Shown here in pieces: positions 4,946 to 45,870 of a stretch of DNA of 46,031 nucleotides (position 1 is the first letter of the stretch; every line of letters begins with the position of its first letter). A program made the translations under genes and the position numbers. Below the pieces are notes generated by a model. It worked only from the letters and a program-made list of their open reading frames with translations, made no database searches and was not told the origin of the DNA. Source of the DNA: Longimicrobium sp. (GTDB taxonomy: Bacteria; Gemmatimonadota; Gemmatimonadetes; Longimicrobiales; Longimicrobiaceae); contig DASVTZ010000048.1 of the NCBI GenBank assembly GCA_036387335.1, forward strand, positions 1 to 46,031. Reading direction: 5' to 3'.

Positions 4946-5146
4946 TCAGGCGCGCTTCTCCAGCACGCCCGCCATCGAATCGTACGCGTAGATCCGTTCC
5001 AGGCCGCCTACCGCCTCCTCGAGGTCTCCATCGGAGATCTCGAGCGCGGCCAGGAGCTCATCGGACTGCTGCTGCGGCGGTTGAGGCGGCGCCGCGGTGC
5101 GCGCCGGGCCCGGAGCCCAGCCACGCAAAAGGTTGAAGATGGACAC
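4946..5146 (-). CDS. Putative RiPP precursor peptide with double-glycine leader
   Basis: The 66-residue product has a Pro/Gln-rich N-terminal part, an acidic leader stretch LEISDGDLEEAVGG, and then an 18-residue tail LERIYAYDSMAGVLEKRA. A leader ending in D/E-rich helix plus GG is typical of peptides cleaved by C39 peptidases. The tail has no Cys, Ser is single and Thr is absent, so a thioether product is unlikely. The GTG at 5146 is preceded by AGAGGAAG at 5 bases. A longer version starting at GTG 5176 or 5179 would overlap the stop of the upstream NHLP gene and be coupled to it. The product could instead be a small non-RiPP protein. Confidence 0.6.
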   Translation of the reverse strand: MSIFNLLRGWAPGPARTAAPPQPPQQQSDELLAALEISDGDLEEAVGGLERIYAYDSMAGVLEKRA

Positions 5147-5172
5147 GGCGCTTCCTCTTGGAGGAGGGTGGA

Positions 5173-5469
5173 TCACCACGGCGCGGGGGGCGGCGACGGC
5201 GGCGGATCGTCCTCGCCGCCGGCGGCGGCGTCCAGCTGGTCGTCGTCCAGCTCCACCTGGCCGTTCTCCAGGTCCGGGAGCACGATCAGGGTGTCCACGT
5301 CCGCGGGCTTCTCGATGAAGCGCAGCCGGTGCGACGAGGGGAGCCGCACGCCGAATGCGTCATAGATCGCCTGCTCCGGCTGGGTGAGAAGACGCTTGCG
5401 GAACACCTCGTCGGTGGCGGCGCGAAGCGATGCATCCCGCAACAGTCTGTCGTTGCCTGGATCGGACAT
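5173..5469 (-). CDS. NHLP-family (nitrile hydratase leader peptide) RiPP precursor
   Basis: The 98-residue protein matches the shape of NHLP precursors: an alpha-nitrile-hydratase-like leader (FRKRLLTQPEQAIYDAFG, then RLRFIEKPADVDTLIVLPD), an acidic segment (LDDDQLDAAAGG) and a short core after the double glycine, EDDPPPSPPPAPW. The core is unusually Pro-rich and ends in Trp. NHLP leaders are known to go with the NHLM export genes; a full set lies at 12174-20334, 7 kb away. The ATG at 5469 starts MSDPGND; the upstream in-frame extension to 5553 looks unlike a leader. The ribosome site is weak. This is not a nitrile hydratase: there is no metal-binding claw motif (C-x-x-C-S-C). Confidence 0.8.
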   Translation of the reverse strand: MSDPGNDRLLRDASLRAATDEVFRKRLLTQPEQAIYDAFGVRLPSSHRLRFIEKPADVDTLIVLPDLENGQVELDDDQLDAAAGGEDDPPPSPPPAPW

Positions 5470-15137: not shown

Positions 15138-15191
15138 CTGGCCTTTGTGGTGCGTGGTGCGGGGGGCCCTCACCCCCGCTCGTTCCTCGCT

Positions 15192-15221
15192 GCCCCCTCT
15201 CCCGATAACGGGAGAGGGGGC
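15192..15221. repeat. Perfect hairpin repeat inside the export operon
   Basis: A perfect 12-bp stem (gccccctctccc with gggagagggggc) with loop gataac is preceded by cgctcgttcctcgctgcc, the shared flank of this repeat family. It lies between two ABC genes on the same strand, so it may lower or protect the downstream part of the message. Confidence 0.7.
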
Positions 15222-15240
15222 GGTACCGAATCCCGCGGCC

Positions 15241-17442
15241 TTACTCCATCGCGATCAGCTGGCTGTAGGCGCCGCCGCGAGCCTTGAGCTCGTCGTGGGT
15301 GCCGCGCTCCACGATGCGGCCGCGGTCCAGGACGACGATCTCGTCGCAGTCGCGGATGGTGCTCAGGCGGTGCGCCACGATCAGGCACATGCAGCCGCGG
15401 CGGCGCAGGTTGTCGTCGATCTCCTTTTCGGTGATCGGGTCCAGGGCGCTCGTGGCTTCGTCCAGCACCAGCAGGGTGGGGTTGTTCACCAGGGCGCGCG
15501 CGATCTCCAGCCGCTGGCGCTGCCCGCCGCTGAAGTTGCGGCCGCCCTCCTCCACCTTCCCCGAATAGCCGCCGGTGCGCGCGCTGATCTCGTCGTGGAT
15601 GCACGCGTCGCGGGCCGCCTGCACCAGGTCCGCGTCGGAGACGGTGTCGTCCCACATCGTCAGGTTCTCGCGGATCGTTCCCTCGAAGAGGAAGATGTCC
15701 TGGTCCACCACCGCCAGGCTGCTGATGAGGGTGCGGCGCGCGTGCCCGGCGCGCGGGAGCCCGTCCAGCAGCACCTGCCCGGCCCACGGGTCGTAGAGGC
15801 CGCTCACCACCCGCGCCACGGTGGACTTGCCGCTCCCCGAGCCCCCCACCAGCGCCACCCGGCTCCCGGGCTTGAGGGTGAGGTTGAAGTCCTGGATGAG
15901 CGCGGGCTCCAGCCGGCTGTAGCCAAAGGACATCCGCTGGATCTCCAGGTGCCCGTCGAGCTTGGTGCGGTGCGCCTCCTCGTCGGGCGCCTCGTGGGTG
16001 TAGCGCACCTCGGCGCGCAGCACGTCGTCCAGCCGGTTCAGATCGCTCCCCACCTCGTGCAGGGTGCTCCCCAGCGCCACCAGCCGGTTGACCGGGGTGA
16101 GGAAGGCGAGCATCAGCGCCTGGAACGCCACCAGCATCCCCATGCTCATCTCGCCGTCCATCACCCGCTGCCCGCCCAGCCCCAGCACCAGCGTGCTGCT
16201 GAGCGCCATCAGCAGGGTGGGGAGCACGGAAAGGAGCTGCGTCTGCCCGCCCAGCTCCTGCTTGGCGTTCACCACCTTGGCGTACTGCCCCGCCCAGCGC
16301 GCGAAGAAGTCGCTCTCCGAGCCGGTGCTCTTGAGCGTTTCGATGTTCATCAGCCCGCCCATGGTGGTGCCCACGGAGCGGCCGTAGTCCTTGGCCAGGC
16401 GGTAGCTGAGGTCGGTGCGCCTGCGCGACACCGCCACGAGCGCCACGATGTTGAGGGCGGCGGTCGCCACCACCACGGCCGTCATCCACAGGTCGTAGCC
16501 GGACATGAGCACGGCGTAGAACGCCACCACCACGATGCTGAGCAGCGTCGTCGCCAGCTCGCCCGAAAGGACGTGCGCGGCGCGGTCGTTGAGCCCCACG
16601 CGCGACGCGATCTCGCCCGGAAAGCGCTGCGAGAGGAACTGCATGGGAAGGTGCAGGACGTGCCAGAAGAAGCGGGTGGAGGCCGTGAGCGACAGCTTCG
16701 TCTCCAGCCGCAGCAGGTAGAGCTGCTGCAGCCAGGTGAGCGCGGCCATGAAGAGCGCGGTGACCCCCATGGCCGCCAGGAGCGGCGTCACCCAGTCGCT
16801 CAGCCCGCGGATGAGCACGGCGTCCACGTACACGCGTGAGAAGGTGGGCACCACCAGCCCCGGCACCACCAGCGCCAGCCCCGCGAGCACGATGAAGGCG
16901 AGCGCGGCGTGCGAGCGCGGCAGGCGGCGACGCAGCGCGCTCACCAGCGAGCGCCCTTCGCCGCCGGGCTTGAACTCGGGCCCCGGCTCCATGACCAGCG
17001 CCACGCCCGTGAACGACTCGTCCAGCTCCTTGTCCGACACGACGCGAGGGCCGTACGCCGGGTCGTTGAGGAAGACCCGCCCCCTGGACCCGAACCCCTC
17101 CAGCACCAGGAAGTGGTTGAAGTTCCAGTGCACGATCATGGGGAGCGGCATGCGGCGCAGCGCCGCGGGCTCCAGCTTGTACCCCTTGGAGGTGAGCCCG
17201 AAGGTGCGGGCCGCGCGCACGATGTTGCTGGCCTTGCTCCCGTCGCGCGAGATGCCGCAGGCGATGCGCAGCTCCTCCAGCGGCACGTAGCGCCCATGGT
17301 GGGCCAGGATCATGGCGAGCGAGGCGCCCCCGCACTCCACCGCCTCCATCTGGAGCACGGTGGGCACGCGGCGGCGCCGGGGCGAGGGTGGGGCGTCCTC
17401 GCCGCCGGCGCGGCCCCGCGCGCGTTCCAGGAGCGCGGTCAT
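15241..17442 (-). CDS. NHLM-type bacteriocin ABC transporter with C39 leader peptidase
   Basis: The 733-residue protein has an N-terminal C39 peptidase with Gln31, Cys37 (QMEAVECGGAS), His110 (HWNFNHFLVLEG) and Asp127 (FLNDPAYG), the full catalytic set. It then has a six-helix exporter domain and a nucleotide-binding domain with GGSGSGKST, FSGGQRQRLEIARAL, LLVLDEATSALD and IVAHRLST. Its job is to cut the leader after a double glycine and export the core. The precursors in this window (4946-5469 and 23413-23989) all carry GG, so they are the likely substrates. The ATG at 17442 overlaps the HlyD stop as ATGA, so translation is coupled. Confidence 0.93.
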   Translation of the reverse strand: MTALLERARGRAGGEDAPPSPRRRRVPTVLQMEAVECGGASLAMILAHHGRYVPLEELRIACGISRDGSKASNIVRAARTFGLTSKGYKLEPAALRRMPLPMIVHWNFNHFLVLEGFGSRGRVFLNDPAYGPRVVSDKELDESFTGVALVMEPGPEFKPGGEGRSLVSALRRRLPRSHAALAFIVLAGLALVVPGLVVPTFSRVYVDAVLIRGLSDWVTPLLAAMGVTALFMAALTWLQQLYLLRLETKLSLTASTRFFWHVLHLPMQFLSQRFPGEIASRVGLNDRAAHVLSGELATTLLSIVVVAFYAVLMSGYDLWMTAVVVATAALNIVALVAVSRRRTDLSYRLAKDYGRSVGTTMGGLMNIETLKSTGSESDFFARWAGQYAKVVNAKQELGGQTQLLSVLPTLLMALSSTLVLGLGGQRVMDGEMSMGMLVAFQALMLAFLTPVNRLVALGSTLHEVGSDLNRLDDVLRAEVRYTHEAPDEEAHRTKLDGHLEIQRMSFGYSRLEPALIQDFNLTLKPGSRVALVGGSGSGKSTVARVVSGLYDPWAGQVLLDGLPRAGHARRTLISSLAVVDQDIFLFEGTIRENLTMWDDTVSDADLVQAARDACIHDEISARTGGYSGKVEEGGRNFSGGQRQRLEIARALVNNPTLLVLDEATSALDPITEKEIDDNLRRRGCMCLIVAHRLSTIRDCDEIVVLDRGRIVERGTHDELKARGGAYSQLIAME

Positions 17443-18743
17443 CGCCCGGCTCGCGACGCGAGGTCGGCCGGCCCGGCGGCGCCGATCCCCAGGAAGCGGC
17501 GGAGCTGCGGCACCACCAGCAGGATGGGCCGGCGGCGCTCCACCACGATGTTGGCGTCGGCCAGCGTGCCGCTCTGGATGCGGATGGGCGGGCCGCTGGA
17601 CGACGACCAGCGGTACTGCGTGGCGCTGGCCGCGTCGGGAATCAGGTCGGCGTGCACCTCGTAGGGCGCGTCCTGCCCTGAGAGCGCCGTCACCAGTTGA
17701 GCGTTCTTGAGCACGCGCTGCATCCCCTGCGGCGTGCTGGGGAAGTCGGAGGCGTACGTCACCCGACCCAGCAGGTAGCCGTACTCCTCCTTCTTGACCG
17801 TGGAGGGGACGATCTGGATCTCCATCCCCGGCTTGATCTTCTTGCCGTGCAGCGAGGGGACGTAGACCACCGCCTCCAGGTTCTTGACCGCCTTGCCGGC
17901 CAGGCTCACCGTCATGATGGGCTCGCCGCGGTCCACCAGACCGCCCTGCTCGGCCATCACCTCCAGCACGCGCCCCGTGTACGGCGAGGTCACCTCGGAC
18001 TGCAGGCGCAGGTCGTTCTCCAGCTTTTCCAGGTTGCGCTCGGCCTCGTGCAGCTGGTTGCGGCTGGCGAGGAGCTCCTGCTCCTTCTGGTTGCCGGCCT
18101 GCAGGCTCTCCACGTTCAGCTGCACCAGCTGGCTGCGGTCCGCGCGGATGCGCTCCTTCACCGTCTCGTGCTCCTGGCGGGAGCGGAGGAGGTTCTGCCG
18201 CGTCATCAGCCCCTGCTGCACCAGCCGCTCCTCGTTGGCGATGCGCTCGGTGAGCGCCGCCAGCGTGGCCTCGGAGGCCTGGATCGACTGTTCCAGGTTG
18301 GTGCGGCGCTGCGCCTGCGAGGCGGCCTGCAGCTGCCGGTCGCGGTCCACGAACGACCCCACGCGGCGGTACTGCCCCTCCAGCTCGGCCACGCGCGAGC
18401 GGGCGTTCCTCACCTGCTCGCTCAGCTCCGGCTGCGACAGGCGGGCGATGACCTGCCCCTCGCGGATGGTGTCGCCCACGCGGATGGAGAGGTCGGATAC
18501 GAGGCCGCCGCTCTGGGCGACCACCTCGTACACGCCGCCGCTGCGCAGCAGGATGGCCTGCGCCGCGATGCGCTCGGGGATGCTCCCCACCACGCTCCAC
18601 GCGATGGCGACCACCAGGAGCGCCGCCAGCCCCGTGAGCGCCAGCCACCCCTTGGGCGTGGCCACCTGCATGAGCTCGTCGAGCTGGTCGGGCGAACCCA
18701 GGCGGTCGAGCGCGACCTTTCGGAAGATGTCCGGCTTGGCCAT
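17439..18743 (-). CDS. HlyD-family membrane fusion protein of NHLM-type secretion system
   Basis: The 434-residue protein has one N-terminal transmembrane helix (WLALTGLAALLVVAIAWSVV, about residues 33-52). It has a split biotinyl-lipoyl domain (GGVYEVVAQSGGLVSDLSIRVG and SPYTGRVLEVMAEQGGLVD) around a long coiled coil rich in Glu, Gln and Arg (about residues 105-235). It links the inner-membrane ABC pair to the TolC channel. The start is MAKPDIF at 18743; no strong ribosome site is seen. It sits 34 bases after the TolC gene. Confidence 0.9.
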   Translation of the reverse strand: MAKPDIFRKVALDRLGSPDQLDELMQVATPKGWLALTGLAALLVVAIAWSVVGSIPERIAAQAILLRSGGVYEVVAQSGGLVSDLSIRVGDTIREGQVIARLSQPELSEQVRNARSRVAELEGQYRRVGSFVDRDRQLQAASQAQRRTNLEQSIQASEATLAALTERIANEERLVQQGLMTRQNLLRSRQEHETVKERIRADRSQLVQLNVESLQAGNQKEQELLASRNQLHEAERNLEKLENDLRLQSEVTSPYTGRVLEVMAEQGGLVDRGEPIMTVSLAGKAVKNLEAVVYVPSLHGKKIKPGMEIQIVPSTVKKEEYGYLLGRVTYASDFPSTPQGMQRVLKNAQLVTALSGQDAPYEVHADLIPDAASATQYRWSSSSGPPIRIQSGTLADANIVVERRRPILLVVPQLRRFLGIGAAGPADLASRAGR

Positions 18744-18777
18744 AACACCGTTCGTGGGCTGATGGTGAGCGGGTGCG

Positions 18778-20334
18778 CTACTGCCGCGGAGCGGCGGGCG
18801 CCCACGACGTGATGCGTTCCGGGTCCGCGGCGGCCTCTCCGTCGCCGTCGCCCAGCAGGGCGCCGGTGTGGAAGCGCAGCTGGGCGACCGCCACCGCGTA
18901 GCGCCGCCGGGTGCCGATCCAGCCGAGGAGCGCGCCGGTGCGCCCGTCCTCCACCTGGATGACCTCCAGGAGGGTGGAGGTGCCCAGCTTGAACTTCTCG
19001 TTCTCGCTCTCCACCGAAAGCCGGTGCAGCCGCACCGCCTCGCGCGAGATCTCCAGCTCCTCAACGGCGCGGCGCAGCGATTCGGCCGCGAGCGCCGCGT
19101 CCAGCGCGATCTGCCGCGTGAGCTCGTCCAGGAAGAGGGATGCGCGCCGGTCCGCGGCGGTGCTCCGCATCACCTGCCCCGCCGCCACGTTGCGCGTCAG
19201 CGGCAGCGCGTACGACAGCGCCACCTGCGCGTTGAAGCCGTGCGTGCTGGCGTAGAAGGGCGAGAAGAGCCGCTCGAACTGCGCCCCGCTCTCCAGCCCG
19301 GTGTAGCCCACGCCCACGCTCAGGTCCACGCGCGGCGCCGCCTCGCTGCGGCTTCCGCGCAACGACGCGCGCGCGGCGGCCACGCGGCTGCGCGCAGCAT
19401 CCAGGTCCGCGCGCCGCTGCAGCGCCTCGGCCACGCTCGCCTCCTCGGCGGGGACGGCGGCGGCACCGCCCGGCGGCGCGATGGGGAGCGAGTCGGCCGG
19501 GAGCGGCAGCGTGGCGAAGCTCTCCGCGCCGAGCCCCACCGCCCGCACCAGCGCCTGCCGCGCGGACGACACCGACCCCTCGCCGCCCAGCCGCGCGGCG
19601 CGCTTGGAGGCCAGGCTGGCCTGCACGGCGAGCCGGTCCGACGCGGGGCGGGCGTCGGCCGCGATCAGCGTCTCCGTCTGCCCGACCAGCGTGCGGGCCC
19701 GCTCTTCGGACTCACGCAGCACGTCCAGCGACTGGAGGGCGGCCACGTAGCCCCAGTACGCCGTGACCGCGTCCAGCACGCGCAGCGCCTGCAGCTGGCG
19801 AAGCTCGCCGCGGCTGGCGTCGAGCGAGGCGGAGGCGGCGCGCTCGCCGGCGCGCAGCCCTCCCCCGCCCCGCCCCCGCCCCAGCGGCACCAGCAGGTCC
19901 AGCCGCGCCACCCCGGTGTTGCGCGTGGGCGCCCCCTCCGCGTCGATCCCCTGGCGGTTGTAGGAGAGGCTGGGCGAGAGCACGAGCCCCGGCCGCAGGC
20001 GCCAGTCCACCCCCGCCGTGTAGTCCAGCCCGCGGCTCTGTGTGGTGGAAGGCCCCGTCTCCGCGTTGCCGAGCGAGGGGTTCCCCGCGCGCTCGCTGGT
20101 GACGCTGGCGAGCGCCTGCGGGTCGAAAGCGCCCCTGGCCTGGCGGAGCGTGCCCTCCTGCGCGTGCACGTCCCACTGCCCCAGCGCGATGTCCGCGTTG
20201 CGGGCCAGGGTGGCGCGGACCACTTCGGCCAGGGTGAGGCGCGGGCCGGGCGGGGCCTGCTGCGCGCGCAGGGGCGCGCTCCCGGCGCCCAGGGCCAGGA
20301 GGAGGATGCCGAACCGGCTCGCCGCGTTGCTCAT
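18778..20334 (-). CDS. TolC-family outer membrane efflux protein
   Basis: The 518-residue protein has a signal peptide (FGILLLALGAGSAPLRAQ) followed by the duplicated TolC/OEP pattern: LTLAEVVRATLARNADIALGQ at the start of half 1, long Ala/Arg/Glu-rich helices, and FKLGTSTLLEVIQVEDGRTGA near the end of half 2. It would form the outer-membrane duct for the HlyD/ABC exporter transcribed just after it. The ATG at 20334 is chosen because the signal peptide starts there and GCAGG is upstream; in-frame extension to 20376 adds an unlikely hydrophilic stretch. Confidence 0.88.
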   Translation of the reverse strand: MSNAASRFGILLLALGAGSAPLRAQQAPPGPRLTLAEVVRATLARNADIALGQWDVHAQEGTLRQARGAFDPQALASVTSERAGNPSLGNAETGPSTTQSRGLDYTAGVDWRLRPGLVLSPSLSYNRQGIDAEGAPTRNTGVARLDLLVPLGRGRGGGGLRAGERAASASLDASRGELRQLQALRVLDAVTAYWGYVAALQSLDVLRESEERARTLVGQTETLIAADARPASDRLAVQASLASKRAARLGGEGSVSSARQALVRAVGLGAESFATLPLPADSLPIAPPGGAAAVPAEEASVAEALQRRADLDAARSRVAAARASLRGSRSEAAPRVDLSVGVGYTGLESGAQFERLFSPFYASTHGFNAQVALSYALPLTRNVAAGQVMRSTAADRRASLFLDELTRQIALDAALAAESLRRAVEELEISREAVRLHRLSVESENEKFKLGTSTLLEVIQVEDGRTGALLGWIGTRRRYAVAVAQLRFHTGALLGDGDGEAAADPERITSWAPAAPRQ

Positions 20335-20516: not shown

Positions 20517-21062
20517 TCACGCGAGCGGAGCCAGCGCCGGCCGTACGCGCGGGGCGAGCTGGTGCCAGGCCAGCGGGAGCCACGCGGTGAACGTCTCCGG
20601 GTAGTCGCGGAGGGCGGCTTCCAGGGCGTCCACCGGGCACCACCGCCAGGCGCCCACCTCGGAGGGGTCGGGAAGCGGCACGCCGCTCCAGACGCCGGAG
20701 AATACGTGGTCGAGCTCGTGCTCCACGAGGCCGTTGCCCAGCTCGGCGCGGTAGGTGAAGTGCCCGGCGCCGGCCAGCGCGCAGTCGAAGCCCATCTCCT
20801 CGCGCAGCCTGCGGTGCGCCGCATCCTCCACCGCCTCGCCGGGGCGGGGATGGCTGCAGCAGGTGTTCGACCAGAGGCCGCCCGAGTGGTACTTGCCGTC
20901 CGCGCGCCGCTGCAGGAGGAGCGAGCCCGCCGCGTCGAAGACGAACACGGAGAAGGCGCGGTGAAGGAGCCCCTCCTGGTGCGCCCGCAGCTTTCCCGCG
21001 GTGCCCACCGGGGCATCGTGCGCGTCCACCAGCACCACCTCGCCGTCCAGGTCGCCGTGCAT
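20517..21062 (-). CDS. idi: Isopentenyl-diphosphate delta-isomerase, type I
   Basis: The 181-residue Nudix protein has the family landmarks: HRAFSVFVFD, LLLQRRADGKYHSGGLWSNTCCSHP (active-site Cys region), PGEAVEDAAHRRLREEMGF (Nudix-type helix), and HELDHVFSG. It converts IPP to DMAPP. The ATG lies one base past the stop of the isoprenoid-synthase-like gene (TGACATG), so the two are translated together. The pairing suggests DMAPP is supplied to the neighbour's prenyl chemistry. Confidence 0.92.
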   Translation of the reverse strand: MHGDLDGEVVLVDAHDAPVGTAGKLRAHQEGLLHRAFSVFVFDAAGSLLLQRRADGKYHSGGLWSNTCCSHPRPGEAVEDAAHRRLREEMGFDCALAGAGHFTYRAELGNGLVEHELDHVFSGVWSGVPLPDPSEVGAWRWCPVDALEAALRDYPETFTAWLPLAWHQLAPRVRPALAPLA

Positions 21063-21063
21063 G

Positions 21064-23283
21064 TCAGACGGCCACGGCGAGCGGCGCCTGGGCGGCCTGG
21101 CGCGCGCGATTGCGCACGCCCACCGCCGCGGCCTCGGTGCGCGCGCGCTCCATGTAGCCCCGGAAGACGGCCAGCCACTCCCGCCAGTCGTCCAGCGGCA
21201 GGTGCGCCACGAGGGCATCGGCCGCGTCCAGGTGCGCGATGGAGACGTCCAGCACCTTCTCCGCCTCGCCGTCGCAGTAGAGGGCGCGGGCGAACGCGGA
21301 GGGCTCCTCCGCCTCGCGCAGCTCAGGCCGGGCGGAGAGGACGTGCCCCACCACCAGCGAGGGGCCGCGCTCGCGCAGGTCCTTGCGCCAGTCCTTGAGG
21401 TCGTCCCAGTAGTACGAGGCCATGTCGAAGTGCTCGATCGACTTCGCCAGCGCCTCCACGTTGCTCTGGTCGCCCGCCAGCGCGGCCATCCCGTGCACCA
21501 CGATGGCGGCGAAGGGAAACTTCCCCTCGGCGATGCGCACGGACATCTCGCGGGTTACCAGTGAGCGGTCCTCGCCGCCGGTGCGCAGCCTGCGCTCCAG
21601 CCCGCAGGCGCGGGTGTACAGGGCAAAGGTCTCGCGGAAGCGGTCCCAGAAGGGCGAGTCCGCGGGAAAGAGCCCCTGGAAGAGGCGGTACGCCTCGAAC
21701 TGCATGGCCACGGCGCGCAGGTAGAGCTGGCCGTGGTCGTAGTTCTTGTGGCCGTCCACGATCTTGTCGGCCATGAAGGCGGACTCGAAGTAGACGCGGC
21801 ACGCCAGCGCGAAGCGGCTCACCGCCTCCTCGGGCACGCTCGGAAAGACCGGGTGGAGGATGAAGGGATAGGCCTGGTACAGCACTCCCTCGTTCCCCTC
21901 GATCCAGAGGAGGATGTCGTCGGGCCAGTGCCGCTGCAGCTCCAGCAGGAGCGGCTCGGCGGCGTTCCGCTTCGCGCGCAGACGGGCGACAGGGGTCATG
22001 GCTGGCTCCTTCCGGGTACGTGTGGGTGGAAGCGTCGCCGCCCTGCGCGGCCCCGCGGACCTTGGTTCCGTCTGGCGGACCGAGGCCGGCACGGGGCGCG
22101 CGGCGTCCGCGCGCTCCACCGGCCCCCGCTCCCGCCCCAGCCTTTCCAGCAGCCCCGCCGCCGCGCCGAAGCCGTCCCTCGCGCCGAACGCCGCACGCGC
22201 GGCGCGGGCACCCCGGCGCAGCGGCTCGCTCGTCATGGCTGCGCCGATCGCCCGCCGCAGCCCCTGGCCGTCCACCTCCGCGGGGACCCCCGCGCCGCAG
22301 CCGGCCCTCTCCGCCCAGTGGGTGAGGGTGACGGACTCGCTGCTCACCGGCACCAGCAGGCTGGGCACTCCGTGGGCGGCGGCGCCCAGCACGGCGGTGG
22401 TGGTGGATCCGCACACCACCGCCGCGGCGCGGGGGAGCACCAGCCCCTGCGGCACGTGCGGCTCGGCGATGAAGTTGGGCGGCAGCGGCCCGGCGGGTAC
22501 GTCCATCCGCGCCGTGGAGGCCACCACCTGCACCGGCCCGCAGGCGAGCGCGTCCACCAGCCGGGGCCAGAAGCCGGGCCCGCCGAAGGAGCGCCCCGCC
22601 TGCGCGTAGACCAGCGGCGCGTCCGGCGCGGCGAAGCGGGCGCGCAGGGCGGCCCACTCGGCGGCTTCGTCGCGCGGCGGCTCCCACAGGCAGGCGCCCG
22701 CCGCGTGCACCCGCGCGGGGAAGGCGGCGAGCTCCGGCTCCAGCCGCGGCACCGTGCGCAGGAGGAAGAGGTCCCCCAGCAGCGGGTGGTCTTCCGGGCC
22801 CCACTCGCCGGGGGCGAGGCGGCAGAGCGCCCGCACCTCGTTGAGCAGGCGGAGGTTGTCCACCAGGTGGCCGTGCCGGCGCGACTCCACCTCGCGCGGG
22901 GCGGCCGCTTCGCCGCGGCGCGCGGCGGGCCACAGGTACGACGCCGTCCCCATCACGGCCAGCGGCAACCCGCTCCGCTCGCGCGCCACCAGCGCGGACT
23001 GGCAGAGCTGGTGCGTCACCAGTACGTCGGGCCGAAAGCGGCGGGCCGCCTCCTCCACCTGCTTCACTCCGAGGACGGCGGCGGGGGCGAGCCCCCACAC
23101 GCGGATGTCGAAGCACCGCTCGTCGTCGCCGTGCTGCGCCAGGCCCGCCTCGTCCAGCAGCGGCCGCGCGGAGGGGCCGGTGACGAAGGCGGCCTCGTGC
23201 CCCCGGCGCCGAAGCTCCAGCGCCATCCCCGCCATGGGGAAGAGGAAGCCCGGGGTGGTGAACGAGCAGAACAGGTAGCGCAC
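21064..23283 (-). CDS. Glycosyltransferase fused in frame to class I isoprenoid-synthase-like domain
   Basis: A single 739-residue open frame. Residues 1-~395 are a UGT/MGT-type glycosyltransferase: MRYLFCSFTTPGFLFPM, FRPDVLVTHQ, PHVPQGLVLPRAAAVVCG and GVPSLLVPVSSE. After a Pro/Arg-rich linker, residues 429-739 form an all-helical isoprenoid-synthase-like domain with DKIVD (weak first Asp motif) and YYWDDLKDWRKD, a good DDxxDxxxD second motif. An internal ATG at 21999 is preceded by GGAAGGAG at 6 bases, so the second domain may also be made alone (311 aa). The start is GTG 23283 with GGGAG 5 bases upstream. It follows the precursor genes and precedes idi; it may glycosylate or prenylate a product. 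Confidence 0.8.
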   Translation of the reverse strand: MRYLFCSFTTPGFLFPMAGMALELRRRGHEAAFVTGPSARPLLDEAGLAQHGDDERCFDIRVWGLAPAAVLGVKQVEEAARRFRPDVLVTHQLCQSALVARERSGLPLAVMGTASYLWPAARRGEAAAPREVESRRHGHLVDNLRLLNEVRALCRLAPGEWGPEDHPLLGDLFLLRTVPRLEPELAAFPARVHAAGACLWEPPRDEAAEWAALRARFAAPDAPLVYAQAGRSFGGPGFWPRLVDALACGPVQVVASTARMDVPAGPLPPNFIAEPHVPQGLVLPRAAAVVCGSTTTAVLGAAAHGVPSLLVPVSSESVTLTHWAERAGCGAGVPAEVDGQGLRRAIGAAMTSEPLRRGARAARAAFGARDGFGAAAGLLERLGRERGPVERADAARPVPASVRQTEPRSAGPRRAATLPPTRTRKEPAMTPVARLRAKRNAAEPLLLELQRHWPDDILLWIEGNEGVLYQAYPFILHPVFPSVPEEAVSRFALACRVYFESAFMADKIVDGHKNYDHGQLYLRAVAMQFEAYRLFQGLFPADSPFWDRFRETFALYTRACGLERRLRTGGEDRSLVTREMSVRIAEGKFPFAAIVVHGMAALAGDQSNVEALAKSIEHFDMASYYWDDLKDWRKDLRERGPSLVVGHVLSARPELREAEEPSAFARALYCDGEAEKVLDVSIAHLDAADALVAHLPLDDWREWLAVFRGYMERARTEAAAVGVRNRARQAAQAPLAVAV
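22006..22013 (-). promoter_or_regulatory. Internal ribosome binding site within the fusion gene
   Basis: On the minus strand this reads GGAAGGAG, 6 bases before an in-frame ATG (21999) that begins the isoprenoid-synthase-like domain. It is one of the best ribosome sites in the window, which argues for independent translation of the C-terminal part. Confidence 0.7.
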
Positions 23284-23378
23284 GGGTCTCCCGGTGCAGG
23301 TCGCGATGGCGCGGGGACCCCCCCGGCCAGCCCTCTCCCCTCAGCCCCTCGAGTGCGACGGCCCACGTTCGTGGTGAA

Positions 23379-23400
23379 GGCCGGCCCCGTGGGGCCGGCC
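23379..23400 (-). terminator. Hairpin after the precursor genes (attenuator or terminator)
   Basis: A strong GC stem (ggccggccc with gggccggcc) has a minimal loop, 12 bases past the stop of the last precursor gene and about 100 bases before the glycosyltransferase start. There is no clear T-run. A partial terminator would keep small precursor messages abundant relative to the enzyme genes. Confidence 0.6.
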
Positions 23401-23412
23401 CCCCTTGCATCA

Positions 23413-23583
23413 CTACTGGATCGACTGCTGCTCTTCGAACGACTTGTTCGTGCCGCAGGTCATGTCCCAGCACCCGCCGGCGGCTTCCTCCAGGCTCTGG
23501 TCGTCGAGCTCTTCCACGTCGAGGTCGTCGGCGTTGAGGCTCACCAGCTCGTCTTCGGGCTTGCCCTGATTCGCTTCGCTCAT
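23413..23583 (-). CDS. RiPP precursor peptide 1, GG leader and Cys core
   Basis: The 56-residue peptide has a 37-residue acidic leader beginning MSEANQGKPEDELVS, followed by ADDLDVEELDDQSLEEAAGG. The core after GG is CWDMTCGTNKSFEEQQSIQ. Its first 26 codons are identical in sequence to precursor 2 and the ribosome site GGAGGTGGATCC is shared, so the two arose by recent duplication. Two Cys at core positions 1 and 6 are the obvious targets for a radical SAM/SPASM enzyme such as the one at 24168-25676, and the GG fits the C39 transporter. The type of cross-link cannot be read from the sequence. Confidence 0.85.
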   Translation of the reverse strand: MSEANQGKPEDELVSLNADDLDVEELDDQSLEEAAGGCWDMTCGTNKSFEEQQSIQ

Positions 23584-23661
23584 GGATCCACCTCCGAGAG
23601 GGTTGAAGGGGCGCTCGCCGGAGCCATGCGCCCCGTCGCGTAGACCGCCCCAGCACTGCTG

Positions 23662-23808
23662 CTACCCGAAAGCGGAGCCGCTGCCGCAGTCACATTCGCG
23701 GCACCCGCCGGCGGGGGCGCCGGCGCGGGGGCTGATCAGCTCGTTTTCCGGCCCTTCCCCGCCGCCCCCGTGGGAGCGGCGGGCCCAGCACCGCCGGGGC
23801 CCTGTCAC
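23662..23808 (-). CDS. Diverged third RiPP precursor, possibly degenerate
   Basis: A reading frame of about 48 residues from GTG 23808 ends in GPENELISPRAGAPAGG, then CRECDCGSGSAFG and a stop. PENELIS matches PEDELVS of precursors 1 and 2, and the core keeps Cys1, Cys6, the following Gly-Ser and Phe12; it has an extra Cys at position 4. About 19 residues of the acidic leader are missing, and there is no Met start or ribosome site. It may be translated by re-initiation, since the GTG lies 13 bases past the stop of precursor 2, or it may be a decaying copy. Confidence 0.5.
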   Translation of the reverse strand: MTGPRRCWARRSHGGGGEGPENELISPRAGAPAGGCRECDCGSGSAFG

Positions 23809-23821
23809 GGACGCCAGCGAC

Positions 23822-23989
23822 TCAGACCGCCCGCTGCTCCTCGAACGAGGAGTTGCTGCCGCAGGTCATGTCCCAGCATCCGCCGGCCGCTTCCTCCAGG
23901 TCCTGATCGTTGAGCTCTTCCACGTCGAGGTCGTCGGCGTTGAGGCTCACCAGCTCGTCTTCGGGCTTGCCCTGATTCGCTTCGCTCAT
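23822..23989 (-). CDS. RiPP precursor peptide 2, GG leader and Cys core
   Basis: The 55-residue peptide has the leader MSEANQGKPEDELVS, then ADDLDVEELNDQDLEEAAGG, and the core CWDMTCGSNSSFEEQRAV. GAGGTGGATCC precedes the ATG by a few bases. It is the first of the three tandem copies and lies 178 bases downstream of the radical SAM/SPASM stop. The core differs from precursor 1 only at the T/S and K/S positions and in the tail after FEEQ. The invariant CWDMTCG suggests these residues are the modified part and the tail is variable. Confidence 0.85.
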   Translation of the reverse strand: MSEANQGKPEDELVSLNADDLDVEELNDQDLEEAAGGCWDMTCGSNSSFEEQRAV

Positions 23990-24133
23990 GGATCCACCTC
24001 AAGGAGAGGGTAGAGGGTGCGCGGCGGAACGTGCTCCGCGGCGGCACCGGGACCCGCGCCCGCCACCGCGGAAGTGCGATGCGGCGGGATCCTGCACTGG
24101 TCCGGGCTCGTTCACGGACGTATCTCGAATGGA

Positions 24134-24155
24134 ACCCGGGCTGCTGCTCCCGGGT
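24134..24155. terminator. Hairpin between radical SAM gene and precursor genes
   Basis: A 7-bp stem acccggg/cccgggt has an 8-base loop. It lies 13 bases past the stop codon of the radical SAM gene. Without a T-run it may be a processing or stability element separating the enzyme message from the precursor message. Confidence 0.5.
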
Positions 24156-24167
24156 GCGGAGGGCGGT

Positions 24168-25676
24168 CTACAGGTCGCAGACGCGCGTGTCCTCCACGAT
24201 GGCGGCGCCGGCCACGTGGTCCAGGTACGCCTGCGCCACCGAGTGGCGGAAGCGGTCGCCGTAGCCGTCGCAGTAGTTGGAGTAGAACTTCCCGTTCTGC
24301 CCCTCGGCCAGCACCGCGCACCCCCCGCCGCAGTGCAGGGCGTAGCGGCACTTGCGGCAGGTGGGGTTGCTGGCGGGGGTGCGGCTGCGCCACATCTTGG
24401 TGAGCCCCGCGTTCATCTCCACCCCGCCGTCGTCCAGCACGCGGCCGATGCGCACCTTCTCGTCGCCCGTGCGCTCCCAGCACGCGTAGATGTCCCCGAA
24501 CTGGTCGAAGATGTACATCCCCGTGTGCGCGCCGCAGAAGCTGCTCTTGAGGTGCGGAAGTCCGTGCGCGCGGTCTTCGAACAGGCGGCGGGCGCGGGCC
24601 TGCAGCCCGTCGTCAGGCCGGCCGATCACGCGCATGTCCGGGAAGGCGATGCGCAGGTCGTCGATGGTCTCGTCCAGCTCCCAGGTGGTGGCGAAGCCGG
24701 TCTGGAACTTGGCGTTGGCGTTGCCGTGCACCACGCGCGCGGTGTACACCGAGAAGCCGCGCCGCCGGTCCCACCCGCGCGCCACGATCTCCTCGGCCAG
24801 CCGCGGCACGTGCAGGATGTTGGTCTTGTCCAGGTTCATGCGCACGGAGACGATGGCGCCCCGGTCCAGGCACAGGTCGATGTTGCGCGCGATCTGGTCG
24901 AACGAGCCGCTGCCGTCCGCGTGGATGCGGCGCTTGTTGTGCTCCTCCGGCGGGCCGTCGAGCGTGATCTGCACCGAGGCGATCCCCTCCGGCCCCAGCA
25001 GGTCCTCGTAGGCCTCCAGCTCGGTGGCGTTGCTCACCGCCCAGAAGCGCACCGGGCCCATGTCGCGCGCGCCCTTGATGATGTACTCGATGATCGGCCG
25101 GTTGACGGCCAGAAAGGGCTCGCCGCCGTAGAAGCCGATGTTGCGCGTGAACTCCACGCCCTCTTCCCAGCCGTGCTCCGCCTCCAGGGTGGGCATGGCG
25201 GCGAAGATGCGGTCCACCATCTCCGGGGTGATGACGTTGAGGAGGCGCGCGTACTGCGGGTCCGTGCGCATGTGGTCCTGGAAGCAGTACGGGCAGCGCA
25301 GGTTGCAGTTGTAGGTGGGCATGAAGATGTACGACGTGCCCTGCTGCAGGGCGCGCTGGTGCCGCTTCTTGGCCGTGCGCGCGAAGAAGCCCTCCTCTTC
25401 CTCGAAGTCCATCACCGTCATGTAGCCGCGCTGCTTCAGCAGCTCCACGGTGCGGTCCGACGGCGCGTACGTGCTCACCGGGCGCTCCGCCGCCGGGTCC
25501 GACTTCCACTCGCCGTGCAGCGGCTTGTGCGCGGGCCCCCGCTCCTGCGAGCGGAGGTAGTCGCCCACCGTGCGCGAGACCTTGTCGTAGGCGCCCGTGT
25601 AGCCATGCACCAGGAGCATTTCGCCGGCGTCTTCCGGGATGTCCACGTAGATGGTGTAGCTGCTCGTCCGAAGCAT
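24168..25676 (-). CDS. Radical SAM/SPASM peptide maturase
   Basis: The 502-residue protein has a PqqD-like winged-helix N-terminal region (about 5-95, YTIYVDIPEDAGEMLLVHG). The radical SAM cluster motif is C124-x3-C128-x2-C131 (TYNCNLRCPYCF), followed by FYGGEPFL and QITLDGPPEEHNKRR. A C-terminal SPASM domain has Cys in SSFCGAH, ACWERTG, NPTCRKCRYALHCGGGCAV and YCDGYG, enough for two extra iron-sulfur clusters. Such enzymes form thioether, C-C or related cross-links on RiPP cores. The three precursors with Cys1/Cys6 lie directly downstream, so they are the likely substrates. ATG 25676 has GGAGA 6 bases upstream; the longer start at 25745 is less likely. Confidence 0.92.
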   Translation of the reverse strand: MLRTSSYTIYVDIPEDAGEMLLVHGYTGAYDKVSRTVGDYLRSQERGPAHKPLHGEWKSDPAAERPVSTYAPSDRTVELLKQRGYMTVMDFEEEEGFFARTAKKRHQRALQQGTSYIFMPTYNCNLRCPYCFQDHMRTDPQYARLLNVITPEMVDRIFAAMPTLEAEHGWEEGVEFTRNIGFYGGEPFLAVNRPIIEYIIKGARDMGPVRFWAVSNATELEAYEDLLGPEGIASVQITLDGPPEEHNKRRIHADGSGSFDQIARNIDLCLDRGAIVSVRMNLDKTNILHVPRLAEEIVARGWDRRRGFSVYTARVVHGNANAKFQTGFATTWELDETIDDLRIAFPDMRVIGRPDDGLQARARRLFEDRAHGLPHLKSSFCGAHTGMYIFDQFGDIYACWERTGDEKVRIGRVLDDGGVEMNAGLTKMWRSRTPASNPTCRKCRYALHCGGGCAVLAEGQNGKFYSNYCDGYGDRFRHSVAQAYLDHVAGAAIVEDTRVCDL

Positions 25677-25751
25677 GGCGGTCTCCGCTGCGTGGGTGGT
25701 CAAGAGAGGGTGAGGGCGGAGCGGCGCTCCGCCGTGTCTTTTCACTCGGGT

Positions 25752-26969
25752 TCAGCTCACCAGCAGCGGCGCCTCGGCGCGCGGAGCGGCGGGGGCGGGT
25801 CCGGCCACCACCACCAGCCCCTGCCCCACCAGCTTGCCCAGCAGGCTGCGTACTGTGTCGCGGTCCACCTGGCCGGCCGCTTCCGCCACCACCCGGGCGA
25901 TGCTCACCGGCTGGCCCTGGAGGAGCGGCTCCACGATGGGCCGCGCGGAGGGGGCGAGCCGCAGCCGCTTGCCCGCGGCCACCAGTTGCACCCGGCCGTC
26001 GGGGGTCTCGGTGAGGGTGGCGTCGCGCGCGGCGGGGAGCTGCACCAGGAAGTCGTCGGTGGGGGGGAGCCCCTCCGCCATGGCGCTCCACGGGAGCCCG
26101 GCCGTCTGCTGCGGCCGCGCGCGGCTCTCCAGGTGCGCGTAGAAGCGGTCCACCAGGTCGGGAGTCAGCTGCGCCAGCAGGTCCTGGCGCAGCAGCTCCA
26201 CGTGCTCCGCGCGCGCCGCCGCCGTGGCGAAGCGCGGCAGGTCCTTGCGCGTGACGGCCGACGCGGCGCAGAGCTGGTCCACCATCCAGAGGAGGAGGTG
26301 GCGCCCGTTGTGGACGTCCACGCCGAAGGTGAGGTGCAGCGACGGCTCCTCCATGGGCACCGCCACGTGCCACCACCCGCGGGGGATGTACAGCAGCTCC
26401 CCCTCGCCCAGGATGCCGTCCCACACCACCTCTTCGGGCGGCGGGTACGACCCGTCCAGCGCGTGCGAGATGGGGTAGGGCCGGTTGTCGCCGTAGACGC
26501 GCCAGTGCTTGCGCCCCGCCACCTGTAGCACGAACACGTCGTGCTCGTCCCAGTGCAGGTCGAACCCCTTGGTGGAGCGCCACCCGGCGTACATGTTGAC
26601 GGTCACGGGCTCGCGGAAGGCGCGCGAGATGGCCTCGGCCAGCTCCCCGATGGGGGCGTACATCTGGTCGATGCGGTTGATGTTGAGCGTGGCCCCCTCG
26701 CGCAGGTGCCGCGTGAGCGCGGACGGCACCACCCGCGGAAAGGGCTGCTCCTGCACGTACGCCGTCCGCGCCACCGGCTTGCCGTCGGTCACCAGCCGCA
26801 GCCGCTGCGCGTCGAAGCTGTGCTCCGCCAGGATGCGGTTGAGCGCGTCCCACGGAAGGAGGTCGGCGAACTTCCCCGGCCAGCCCGGGACGTGCTCGAA
26901 GCGCTTGCCCCAGGAATCGCGGATGAACTCGTCCACGGTGTGGGGCGCGAAGAGGCGGTCGATCAGCAT
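25752..26969 (-). CDS. JmjC/cupin-type Fe(II) oxygenase with C-terminal winged helix
   Basis: The 405-residue protein resembles bacterial ribosomal-oxygenase-like cupins (YcfD/RoxA): WGKRFEHVPG at the N-terminus, NMYAGWRSTKGFDLHWDEHDVF with the HxD iron ligands His139 and Asp141, and YIPRGWWHVA with the distal His201. The last ~110 residues look like the dimerising winged-helix tail. The expected reaction is 2-oxoglutarate-dependent hydroxylation, here most likely of a peptide. The start overlaps the stop of the GT9-like gene (ATGCTGA), so the two are translationally coupled. It lies 75 bases before the radical SAM gene, consistent with a shared peptide substrate. Confidence 0.85.
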   Translation of the reverse strand: MLIDRLFAPHTVDEFIRDSWGKRFEHVPGWPGKFADLLPWDALNRILAEHSFDAQRLRLVTDGKPVARTAYVQEQPFPRVVPSALTRHLREGATLNINRIDQMYAPIGELAEAISRAFREPVTVNMYAGWRSTKGFDLHWDEHDVFVLQVAGRKHWRVYGDNRPYPISHALDGSYPPPEEVVWDGILGEGELLYIPRGWWHVAVPMEEPSLHLTFGVDVHNGRHLLLWMVDQLCAASAVTRKDLPRFATAAARAEHVELLRQDLLAQLTPDLVDRFYAHLESRARPQQTAGLPWSAMAEGLPPTDDFLVQLPAARDATLTETPDGRVQLVAAGKRLRLAPSARPIVEPLLQGQPVSIARVVAEAAGQVDRDTVRSLLGKLVGQGLVVVAGPAPAAPRAEAPLLVS

Positions 26970-28441
26970 GCGATGGTTCCAGGTAGCGGGGGCTCTGCGC
27001 GACGGGGGCGTACGGTGGGGCGCCGGCGCCGCGGCGGCCCCGTGTCGCCCTCGCCGCGCGCGGCGCGCCGCCGGGCCACCATCGCCTCCACCGCGGCCAC
27101 CACGCGCCGCGCGTCCAGGCGGTCCCACAGCGCCTCGGCGAAGGCCACGTGGGCCGGGTGGTCGCTCACGCCCCGCCCCAGCAGCGGGTTGTCCTCAGGC
27201 TGAAGCGCGATCCCCTCCACGTACGGGTAGTACGCGGTGCGGCTCTCGGGCGTCATGGAGGTGAAGAGGACCACGGCCGGCACGTCGAAGGCGTCGGCCA
27301 GGTGGTAGGCGCACGTGTCGGTGCTCACCACCATGTCCGCCCGCGCCACCAGGTGCGCGAAGTGGTCGAAGGTGCGCGAGTGCGCCGACCAGTCCAGGAA
27401 GCGGGGATGGTCCACCGCCAGCGGCACCGCGCTCGCCACGCGCCACCCGGTGAGCTCCAGCAGCTCGTGGACGAAGCGGGCGGCCCGCTCCGCCGGAAAG
27501 GTGCGGATGGGGGTGGAGCTCTGCGGGTGGAAGAGGAGCACCGGCGCGCCGCCGCCGTCCGCCGCGAGCCCGTTCGCCAGCTCCGCCGCGACGGCCGGCG
27601 ACGGGGGGAACGACATCCGCTTGCGCGACGCGGGGACGGCGCGGGGGTCGAGCCCGCAGGCGTCCATGCAGATGTCTACCCAGTGCGCATCGGCCGTTAC
27701 GCGCTCCCCCGTGAGATCCAGGTACGCGTCGTAGCCCGTGAGGAGCTGCACGGGTGCGGGAAGAAAGTGGATTCCGTCGATCAGGCCGGAGCGGCGGAAG
27801 AGCGCTTCCGCCTCGGCGTTACATCGGTGCTGCACCAGGTCAAGCGTGACCTCGTCGAAGCGCGCTTCCAGGGTGGCGCGCAGCTCGCGGAGGGCGCAAA
27901 GGCCCAGCAGTGTGTCGCCGAAGGCCAGGTGGAGGATGTTGACGACGGCCACCCGCACCGCGCGCCGCCCCTGGAGCAGCTCCAGCGCGCTCGCCAGCGG
28001 CGCGAACTCGCCGGTGGCTCCCAGGCGTCCCACGCGTGCCGGCATCCCGCGCTGCGCCAGCAGCTTGGCCTGCGCCCCGGCGGAGAGCACCTTGAGCACG
28101 TCCGGGCATCCGCGCGCCCGCGCGCGCCTGGCGTACTCGTTGAGCGCGCCGAAGAAGACGGGCGAGTTGGCCAGGTGCACGTCGCGCCCGGTGAGGCGCC
28201 CGTCGCGCGGGGCCTCCAGGCGGAGGGCGAGCTCGCCGGGGGCGGCGGGGGGCGCCTCTCCCGCGGGGTGGATGGAGTACACGGAGACGTCCGACCCGCG
28301 GCCGTAGTAGCGCACCCGCACGTCCAGCGGCTCGGTGACGTAGAAGAGCGTCGCCGAACGGGCGTCCGGGGGGAGGACGCCCGCGGAACGCCTCGCACCC
28401 CGTTCGAGCGTGTCTGCTGTGCCGGCGGGGCGAGCGTTCAT
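26963..28441 (-). CDS. GT9/heptosyltransferase-like glycosyltransferase
   Basis: This 492-residue protein has a C-terminal ~280-residue half that matches the GT9 heptosyltransferase fold: VAVVNILHLAFGDTLLGLCALRELR, GYDAYLDLTGE, LLFHPQSSTPIRTFPAERAARFV, and ADMVVSTDTCAYHLADAFDVPAVVLF. The N-terminal ~200 residues are unusual for the family and have no clear match; they might bind the acceptor. I infer transfer of a sugar to the peptide or a lipid acceptor. The ATG at 28441 (MNARPAG) follows AGGAAGCAGG; a longer frame to 28636 would run through the promoter. Its end overlaps the cupin start by 7 bases. Confidence 0.75.
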   Translation of the reverse strand: MNARPAGTADTLERGARRSAGVLPPDARSATLFYVTEPLDVRVRYYGRGSDVSVYSIHPAGEAPPAAPGELALRLEAPRDGRLTGRDVHLANSPVFFGALNEYARRARARGCPDVLKVLSAGAQAKLLAQRGMPARVGRLGATGEFAPLASALELLQGRRAVRVAVVNILHLAFGDTLLGLCALRELRATLEARFDEVTLDLVQHRCNAEAEALFRRSGLIDGIHFLPAPVQLLTGYDAYLDLTGERVTADAHWVDICMDACGLDPRAVPASRKRMSFPPSPAVAAELANGLAADGGGAPVLLFHPQSSTPIRTFPAERAARFVHELLELTGWRVASAVPLAVDHPRFLDWSAHSRTFDHFAHLVARADMVVSTDTCAYHLADAFDVPAVVLFTSMTPESRTAYYPYVEGIALQPEDNPLLGRGVSDHPAHVAFAEALWDRLDARRVVAAVEAMVARRRAARGEGDTGPPRRRRPTVRPRRAEPPLPGTIAC

Positions 28442-28556: not shown

Positions 28557-28620
28557 AAGATAGATCCGAAAAAACGTTCTTCAAGATACCGTTCGAACGG
28601 AAACGGGCGCCGAACAAACG
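28557..28620 (-). promoter_or_regulatory. Promoter with bipartite operator upstream of GT9-cupin-radical SAM genes
   Basis: On the minus strand the order is CGTTTGTTCGGCGCCC (28605-28620), 4 bases, the 12-bp palindrome CCGTTCGAACGG (28589-28600), 4 bases, a -35-like TTGAAG (28579-28584), 16 bases, and a -10-like TATCTT (28557-28562). The same bipartite element is upstream of the nucleotidyltransferase gene, with identical spacing. The position upstream of -35 suggests an activator site. Confidence 0.7.
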
Positions 28621-28652
28621 TCGCGCTCCGGGCCATGCGGGCGGCGGCGCGT

Positions 28653-29756
28653 CTACTCCGCGCCCCTTCCCAGCATGCCCGTGACTCCCCCCAGCCAGGG
28701 GTTGATGACCCGCCGCCTGCGCGCGCGCTCGTCGGTGTCGCGGCGGGGCGCGCGCAACACGTACTCGCGGATAACGGGAAGGATGCGCTCGTCGGCAGGC
28801 CTCCACTCCACCTCCGGCAGCAGCCCCGCCGGGATGGGCGCGTGAAGGATCTCGCGCGTCAGCCGCAGCGTCACCGCCACCAGCTTGGCCGCGTTCCAGG
28901 CGCGCGCCGTCGCCTCCACCCGCTCCCAGTCCACCCGCGGCTCCGCGCGCGCGGCCCAGGCGATGTCGCACAGCTTCTGGACGGTGATGTTGAAGCCGTG
29001 GTGAAAGGAGGCGTGCAGGCACAGGTGGAGGAGGAGGTCTTCGGGCGAGAACGCCAGCAGCTCCGCGTCGTGGAAGCCGGCCGGCCGCACCCGCGCCCAC
29101 AGGTCGTCCATGCGCAGGGTGAAGGGGCTCGCCGGCGGTCCGCCCCCGCGCGGGTGCCCCACCGCGTCGATCGACCAGTGCAGCTCCACCTCGAGCTCCC
29201 CCTCCTTCTGCATGGGAACGAGGTGGTGGTTGCACGCGTACACCGGCTCCAGATGGGGGTGGTTCTCCGGACGGTAGCCCAGCTCCAGCAGGACGCGGTA
29301 CGCGCGCTCGATGTCCGGGCGCGGCACCAGCAGGTCCACGTCCTCCATGCAGCGGAAGGCGGGGTCGCCGTACACGCCGCGCGCCAGGTACGCCCCCTTG
29401 AGCACCACCGCGGGGATTCCCGCCCCGCCCAGCTCGCGGGCCACTTCGGCCAGCCCCCGGTACATCCGCGCGTTCGAGCTCGAGGTGGCCGCGTACGCCT
29501 CCTCCATCGCCCGGGCGGCGGCGGGGGGCACCGCCAGCCCCGGCTCGTCGGCGAGCCGCGCGCCCACCAGCGGGGCCACTTCGTGACGGAGCGCCCGCGC
29601 CACCAGCACCTCCCATTCGGCGGCGGTCAGCGCGGCGAGCCGCTCCACGAGGGGCTCACCGGCTCGCAGCGACAGGCAGGCGGCCAGCAGGTCGCGGGGA
29701 GTGCCGCCCGCCACGTCCGCGTCCACCGGCTCGGCCAGCAACGGGATCTGCGCCAT
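28653..29756 (-). CDS. Nucleotidyltransferase-family protein (NTP_transf_5 type)
   Basis: The 367-residue protein has the nucleotidyltransferase core IPAVVLKGAYLARGVYGDP (Lys120) followed by the metal-binding CMEDVDLLVPRPD (Asp139, Asp141), then VELHWSIDA and LLHLCLHASFHHGF. Members of this family often sit in RiPP and peptide gene clusters, where their substrate is mostly unknown. It begins its own transcript at a promoter that shares an operator with the gene that follows it. AGAGG precedes the ATG by about 8 bases. It is probably an accessory enzyme that adenylylates a peptide or sugar; that is inference. Confidence 0.82.
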   Translation of the reverse strand: MAQIPLLAEPVDADVAGGTPRDLLAACLSLRAGEPLVERLAALTAAEWEVLVARALRHEVAPLVGARLADEPGLAVPPAAARAMEEAYAATSSSNARMYRGLAEVARELGGAGIPAVVLKGAYLARGVYGDPAFRCMEDVDLLVPRPDIERAYRVLLELGYRPENHPHLEPVYACNHHLVPMQKEGELEVELHWSIDAVGHPRGGGPPASPFTLRMDDLWARVRPAGFHDAELLAFSPEDLLLHLCLHASFHHGFNITVQKLCDIAWAARAEPRVDWERVEATARAWNAAKLVAVTLRLTREILHAPIPAGLLPEVEWRPADERILPVIREYVLRAPRRDTDERARRRRVINPWLGGVTGMLGRGAE

Positions 29757-29871
29757 GGGGATACCTCTGTTTCGGTGGCCGGGTCACGCATCCCAGCCGC
29801 GCGGGCGGAGGGGGGCGGGAGCAAGAACTGGGGCGGGGCTACACTCATTGATCGTCGGGAGGAGGGGTGTG

Positions 29872-29913
29872 TCGCAAGCCACCGTTCGAACGGCGTGGGG
29901 CACCGAACGAACG
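29872..29913 (-). promoter_or_regulatory. Second copy of bipartite operator upstream of nucleotidyltransferase gene
   Basis: On the minus strand this is CGTTCGTTCGGTGCCC (29898-29913), 4 bases, the palindrome CCGTTCGAACGG (29882-29893), 4 bases, and a -35-like TTGCGA (29872-29877). It matches the 28589-28620 copy in both halves and spacing. The -10 is not obvious. Confidence 0.65.
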
Positions 29914-45102: not shown

Positions 45103-45870
45103 TTACGGCGCCCCCGCCGCGGTCGCTTGTACGGATGCGACACGCTCGGCGCGCCAAACGTGCGGCGCCACACCGGCCAGCCGCGCGAACTCGCGGTTGA
45201 AGTGCGCCTGGTCGTAGTAGCCCGCCCGCAGCGCCACGCGCCCCAACGGAAGCTCCGCGCGCGCCATCAGCGCGATCGCTGCATTGAGCCGCGCCACGCG
45301 CGCAGCCTGCTTGGGGGTGAGCCCCACGTGATCGTGGAAGATGCGCTGCAGCCGCCGCTCGCCCACCCCGAGCTGCGCCGCCAGCTCGCGCACGGGGAGC
45401 GCGCCGGCCGTCGAGCGCAGGCGCGCCCACGCCGCGGCAGCGATCGGCTCAGGCGCGTCCCGGAAGCGCGCGGCGAGCACCTCCTCCAGCACCGGCACGG
45501 CCGCGAGCGCGGAGCCAGCGTCCAGCACCGGCGCGCACAGGGAGCCCAGCCCCAGCTCGTCCAAACCCGCGTCCAGGTCCGTTAGCTCGCCCGCGGGTAA
45601 GCCCAGCGCGGCGCCGCCCGGCCGGAAGCGCACTCCCACGATCTCCACGCGCCCCGCCACGTGCACGGGAACCGCGCGCGTCATGGCGCCCACCGCATAG
45701 CCGCGCGGGCGATCGCCGAGGTCGAAGATCAGGTCGATGCACCCGTCCGGCAGCACGCGGTTGAGCGCGGGGGCGGGCAGCGGCCCGTCCGAGCGCAGCG
45801 TCCACAGGCACTCCACGCGGGCGGCGAGGGCGGGCGGTGGATCGTGTTCGAGGTACAGGGGCGCGGTCAT
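45103..45870 (-). CDS. AraC-family transcriptional regulator
   Basis: The 255-residue protein has an N-terminal sensor domain (YLEHDPPPALAARVECLWTL, PDGCIDLIFDLGDRP) of the kind found in AraC proteins with a DUF6597-like input. The C-terminal AraC helix-turn-helix pair is GERRLQRIFHDHVGLTPKQ with RLNAAIALMA, and AGYYDQAHFNREFARLAG. It probably controls the VOC gene that follows it. ATG 45870 is chosen over the frame's earlier start because the protein-like sequence begins there. Confidence 0.85.
   Translation of the reverse strand: MTAPLYLEHDPPPALAARVECLWTLRSDGPLPAPALNRVLPDGCIDLIFDLGDRPRGYAVGAMTRAVPVHVAGRVEIVGVRFRPGGAALGLPAGELTDLDAGLDELGLGSLCAPVLDAGSALAAVPVLEEVLAARFRDAPEPIAAAAWARLRSTAGALPVRELAAQLGVGERRLQRIFHDHVGLTPKQAARVARLNAAIALMARAELPLGRVALRAGYYDQAHFNREFARLAGVAPHVWRAERVASVQATAAGAP

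Follow-up and report, generated by a model that had tools for sequence, protein, structure and literature searches.

The window, by which we mean the whole 46,031-nucleotide stretch of Longimicrobium sp. DNA analysed here, contains two copies of a 39-bp element, A and B, which head a single NHLM-type RiPP gene cluster on the minus strand. Cluster genes were called by combining a codon-usage gene model with family searches (Pfam, NCBIfam), giving the following features:

29875-29913, minus: element B, 39 bp long and 118 bp upstream of the NTP_transf_5 start codon, with its distal repeat at 29899-29913, its proximal repeat at 29878-29892 and the perfect palindrome at 29882-29893
28653-29756, minus: NTP_transf_5 nucleotidyltransferase-like gene (Pfam PF14907, E 2.5e-59), downstream of element B
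28582-28620, minus: element A, 39 bp long and 140 bp upstream of the GT9-like start codon, with its distal repeat at 28606-28620, its proximal repeat at 28585-28599 and the perfect palindrome at 28589-28600
26963-28441, minus: GT9-like gene (Pfam PF01075, E 2e-7), the first gene after element A
25752-26969, minus: JmjC_2 (ribosomal-oxygenase-like) gene
24168-25676, minus: radical SAM/SPASM peptide maturase gene
23822-23989, minus: RiPP precursor 1 (55 aa), whose leader ends in AAGG and whose core is CWDMTCGSNSSFEEQRAV
23413-23583, minus: RiPP precursor 2, 56 aa, a near-duplicate of precursor 1
12174-20334, minus: export genes overall
18778-20334, minus: TolC-like gene (OEP match)
17439-18743, minus: NHLM HlyD gene
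15241-17442, minus: NHLM ABC1 gene with C39 peptidase (Peptidase_C39 match)
12174-15137, minus: NHLM ABC2 gene

Read along the minus strand, the order is NTP_transf_5, GT9-like, JmjC_2, radical SAM/SPASM, the two precursors, a glycosyltransferase and an IPP isomerase, followed by the TolC-like, NHLM HlyD, ABC1 and ABC2 genes. The exporter set, with matches to TIGR03794, TIGR03796 and TIGR03797 that exceed their cut-offs, and the GG-leader precursors, both with leaders that end in AAGG and two-cysteine cores, mark the cluster as NHLM-type, peptide modification being predicted. Within the precursor region (23413-23989, minus), a 204-bp stretch is duplicated at 87% identity, and a degenerate third precursor copy (23658-23712) lies between the two main ones; in it an AGG-type junction and a short core with Cys survive, but most of the leader is gone.

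A second pair of GT9-like and radical SAM genes, truncated at the end of its contig, was also identified in the same genome (L024, 13263-16411 of G000:C126), its proteins being 45% (GT9-like) and 66% (radical SAM) identical to those of the cluster. The open frame of the cluster's GT9-like gene continues upstream through element A to 28636. Given that the GT9-like paralogue begins at 'FYV', which corresponds to residue ~32 from the 28441 start and thus lies downstream of A, and that the upstream stretch of the frame is not accepted by the codon model, element A is taken as intergenic.

Alignment of the two intergenic regions yielded a minus-strand consensus common to both copies, CGTTYGTTCGGYGCCCnnnnCCGTTCGAACGGTnnCTTG (39 bp). 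The best ungapped matches between the regions were identical at 26/32 and 31/39 positions, compared with maxima of 25/32 and 28/39 (39-mer mean 23.2, sd 1.1) among 2000 dinucleotide-preserving shuffles of the region pairs. Conversely, the 60-bp flanks of the elements are only 23% and 30% identical, approximately as expected from base composition, and all four positions of the inner 4-base spacer differ between A and B. Given this 31/39 identity, the chance-level flanks and the divergent spacer, the 39-bp element is a bounded conserved unit. Re-reading of both sites agreed with the coordinates and sequence reported for them in the preliminary description, including a TTG that begins 4 bases past the palindrome on the minus strand in each copy. 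The 32-base motif described there is real but too short, since a T, the CTTG and their spacing are also common to A and B. Similarly, the copies had been placed in two otherwise different regions; their flanks are indeed dissimilar, but the copies are separated by 1.3 kb, share one orientation and precede adjacent tandem genes of one cluster.

The bipartite motif is confined to this cluster. A scan of the 5.82-Mb genome allowing up to 3 mismatches located it in two places only, elements A and B, so that the scattering through the genome that had been named as evidence against a shared activator was not observed. A relaxed core version found only 3-mismatch matches elsewhere in the genome, and the best further candidate in a degenerate scan of the window carried 12 mismatches of 33. 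The palindrome alone occurs three times in the genome; the third occurrence, on C157, falls within a coding sequence read as X-Pro-peptidase-like, and was counted as chance. The motif was also absent from 394 of 394 other genomes of the phylum, and a 23-base version had no match in a collection of 84,980 species, which may omit the window's own genome. With two copies and no scatter, the element is a putative operator, intergenic and restricted to one cluster. A search of the 84,980 species likewise yielded no relatives of the GT9-like gene downstream; with neither these nor the bipartite motif to be had there, phylogenetic footprinting is impossible, and the evidence base comprises two sequences only, without orthologous promoters.

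Closer examination of the internal anatomy of the element revealed two overlapping symmetries. When the element is shifted on itself, an offset of 21 bp scores best in A as well as in B, aligning CGTTyG-TT-CGGy-nn-C with CGTTCG-AA-CGGT-nn-C, with 9/15 (A) and 12/15 (B) positions matching. The joint direct-repeat score of 21/30 was reached in 10 of 5000 column shuffles with all offsets allowed, and the 16-mer score at a fixed 21-bp offset in none of 5000. Also present is a perfect 12-bp palindrome, CCGTTCGAACGG, which is identical in A and B and arises in 43/5000 shuffles of the element. The palindrome is therefore about as unlikely by shuffle as the repeat, and the two are not fully separable. 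Nonetheless, both copies have two ~15-bp half-sites in direct repeat 21 bp apart, in line with the 21-22 bp of AraC/XylS-type sites, and from sequence the imperfect direct repeat (CGTTYGwwCGGY) with its 21-bp period appears to fit activator sites of this type better than a palindrome plus extra box. The palindrome noted in the preliminary description, with a separate box beside it, is thus perfect as claimed but probably not the working unit, which would be the 15-bp imperfect direct repeat at 21 bp.

The elements lie 118-140 bp before the start codons of co-oriented neighbouring genes, and in both copies the proximal half-site adjoins the -35-like TTG of a weak candidate promoter:

28557-28584, minus: candidate weak promoter of unit A, TTGAAG-N16-TATCTT, matching at 4/6 and 4/6 (read from sequence)
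29851-29877, minus: very weak candidate promoter of unit B, TTGCGA-N15-GACGAT, matching at 4/6 and 3/6 (read from sequence)

A strict consensus promoter scan returned no match for unit A or unit B, and the candidate promoter of B is without a convincing -10. Readings of the sites by eye as ECF-sigma (GAAC...CGTC/CGTT) or sigma-54 promoters were dropped, as the matching parts were not conserved between A and B. At the paralogous C126 locus, conversely, the 39-bp operator-like element is absent and a near-consensus promoter (TTGACC-N16-TATACT) is present. This contrast between poor hexamers at both units and a near-consensus promoter at the locus lacking the element favours a role of the element in activation.

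Because AraC/XylS-type sites are laid out as ~15-bp direct repeats that are spaced by two helical turns and end at a weak -35, we predict that A and B form an operator pair for a transcription activator dedicated to the cluster, the likeliest reading, to which we give roughly an even chance. Under this model, each site would comprise a ~15-bp half-site (CGTTYGwwCGGYnnC) present as an imperfect direct repeat at 21 bp, a period of two turns that would align two bound subunits along one face of the helix. Relative to the A promoter as drawn, the half-sites would occupy approximately -70 to -55 and -49 to -35. With the proximal half-site touching a poor -35 hexamer, an activator of the AraC/XylS type could recruit RNA polymerase to a weak promoter. 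The pair might in this way coordinate two minus-strand promoters, that of NTP_transf_5 and that of the run from GT9-like through JmjC and radical SAM to the precursors, so that the two units would be expressed jointly. Of the shared activator put forward in the preliminary description, a shared cis-regulatory site before two genes is well supported by uniqueness and placement, and activation would fit the position at a weak -35.

A homodimeric regulator (e.g. of TetR, MarR or LuxR type) might instead bind the perfect palindrome by the -35, with the upstream box as a weaker second dimer site, and either activate or repress. This reading is close to that of the preliminary description, and the perfection of the palindrome, its identity in A and B and its rarity among shuffles all speak for it. 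However, the upstream box is non-palindromic yet nearly as conserved (14/16 positions), with its 4-base distance to the palindrome kept as well, whereas one half-site in the direct-repeat reading accounts for both box and palindrome; we consider a symmetric operator a genuine alternative, though on balance a doubtful one. Control at the level of RNA appears improbable. Here a longer transcribed leader would form a hairpin (CGUUYG UU CGG ... CCG UU CGAACG) controlling elongation or translation, and it is true that A and B fold into one common hairpin whose internal loop is a symmetric UU/UU, that the C/U change at position 5 keeps pairing (C-G or U-G), and that few shuffles fold as well as B (z -2.4, 3/200). 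The fold of A, however, is unexceptional (z -1.4), the hairpin is a consequence of the self-complementary words CGTTCG/CGAACG, conservation extends to the unpaired GCCC, T and CTTG, and a promoter scan found no promoter-like site upstream of the elements.

That the copies are a non-functional leftover, either because a short stretch was recently duplicated locally or because a small insertion is present twice, seems very unlikely. Their proximity, shared orientation and the 204-bp duplication in the precursor region of the same cluster would be in keeping with such an origin, but identity breaks off abruptly at both ends of the 39-bp stretch, the inner spacer differs throughout, the distances to the start codons are similar, and the genome holds no further copies. 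We also considered a private two-site regulon under a regulator of an undescribed class, for which the site would be both direct repeat and palindrome and of which the orphan protein encoded at 3958-4713 might be an example; this we judge to be a slim prospect.

Returning to a paired activator operator of AraC/XylS type, family searches found no regulator of a known family inside the cluster. The genome contains 15 AraC-type HTH genes, including one within the window (45103-45870), but no link connects any of the 15 to the elements. The protein at 3958-4713 (minus), which had been proposed as a regulator, was without support as a DNA-binding protein in any sequence test run. It had no Pfam or NCBIfam match, no PDB relative and no relative in 60 other related genomes, and its score against a profile built from the AraC domains of this genome was 7.4 bits, which several shuffles of the protein itself exceeded. 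Its single-sequence fold (pLDDT 40) was too poor for a structure search; in this very low-confidence model nothing but the order of the predicted helices resembles an AraC-type double helix-turn-helix, a lead at most.

Two described systems share the predicted layout. XylS binds Pm of the Pseudomonas putida TOL plasmid at two 15-bp direct repeats, proximal and distal, contacted by two monomers touching RNA polymerase (PMC5481539), and MtlR binds PmtlE of Pseudomonas fluorescens at two 15-bp blocks at approximately -72 to -58 and -50 to -36, directly before the -35, from a regulator gene that is not adjacent to its operon (PMC4514859). Like the Pm site, A and B consist of two ~15-bp direct repeats, promoter-proximal and distal; however, the half-site is unrelated (CGTTYGwwCGGY here, TGCA-N6-GGTA in XylS), and two promoters of a RiPP cluster are involved rather than one catabolic operon. 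The likeness to PmtlE lies in two 15-bp blocks just upstream of a putative -35 and in the lack of an adjoining regulator gene, no regulator of a known family being located inside the cluster. The spacing is 21 bp as against 22 bp, the half-site is again unrelated, and a perfect palindrome covers most of the proximal half-site in A and B. The regulatory principle would be ordinary, the element pair being a new example of a common kind of control switch, albeit one that is real, specific and placed where it makes sense. Many RiPP clusters of little-studied bacteria are silent in culture, their control unknown; a cluster-specific site pair provides a handle for finding the regulator and for switching on a cluster with unusual enzymes.

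As in other NHLM/NHLP-type RiPP clusters, HlyD, ABC1 and ABC2 exporters are combined with a radical SAM/SPASM maturase and GG-leader precursors, with a candidate NHLP leader gene nearby. In contrast to such clusters, the two main precursors are without an NHLP leader match, and JmjC, GT9-like, NTP_transf_5, IPP isomerase and glycosyltransferase genes are linked here. The NHLP-leader-like precursor was found at 4946-5406 (minus; E 8e-11 to TIGR03793, short of the cut-off), some 18 kb away from the main precursors, in a stretch that also encodes a second small GG-motif peptide and adjoins the orphan gene at 3958-4713. Also unusual for an NHLM cluster is the enzyme set at 20517-28441 (minus), comprising the JmjC_2 oxygenase, the GT9-like protein, a glycosyltransferase with a long C-terminal part that has no Pfam match, and a type 1 IPP isomerase, which may hint at an isoprenoid part in the product.
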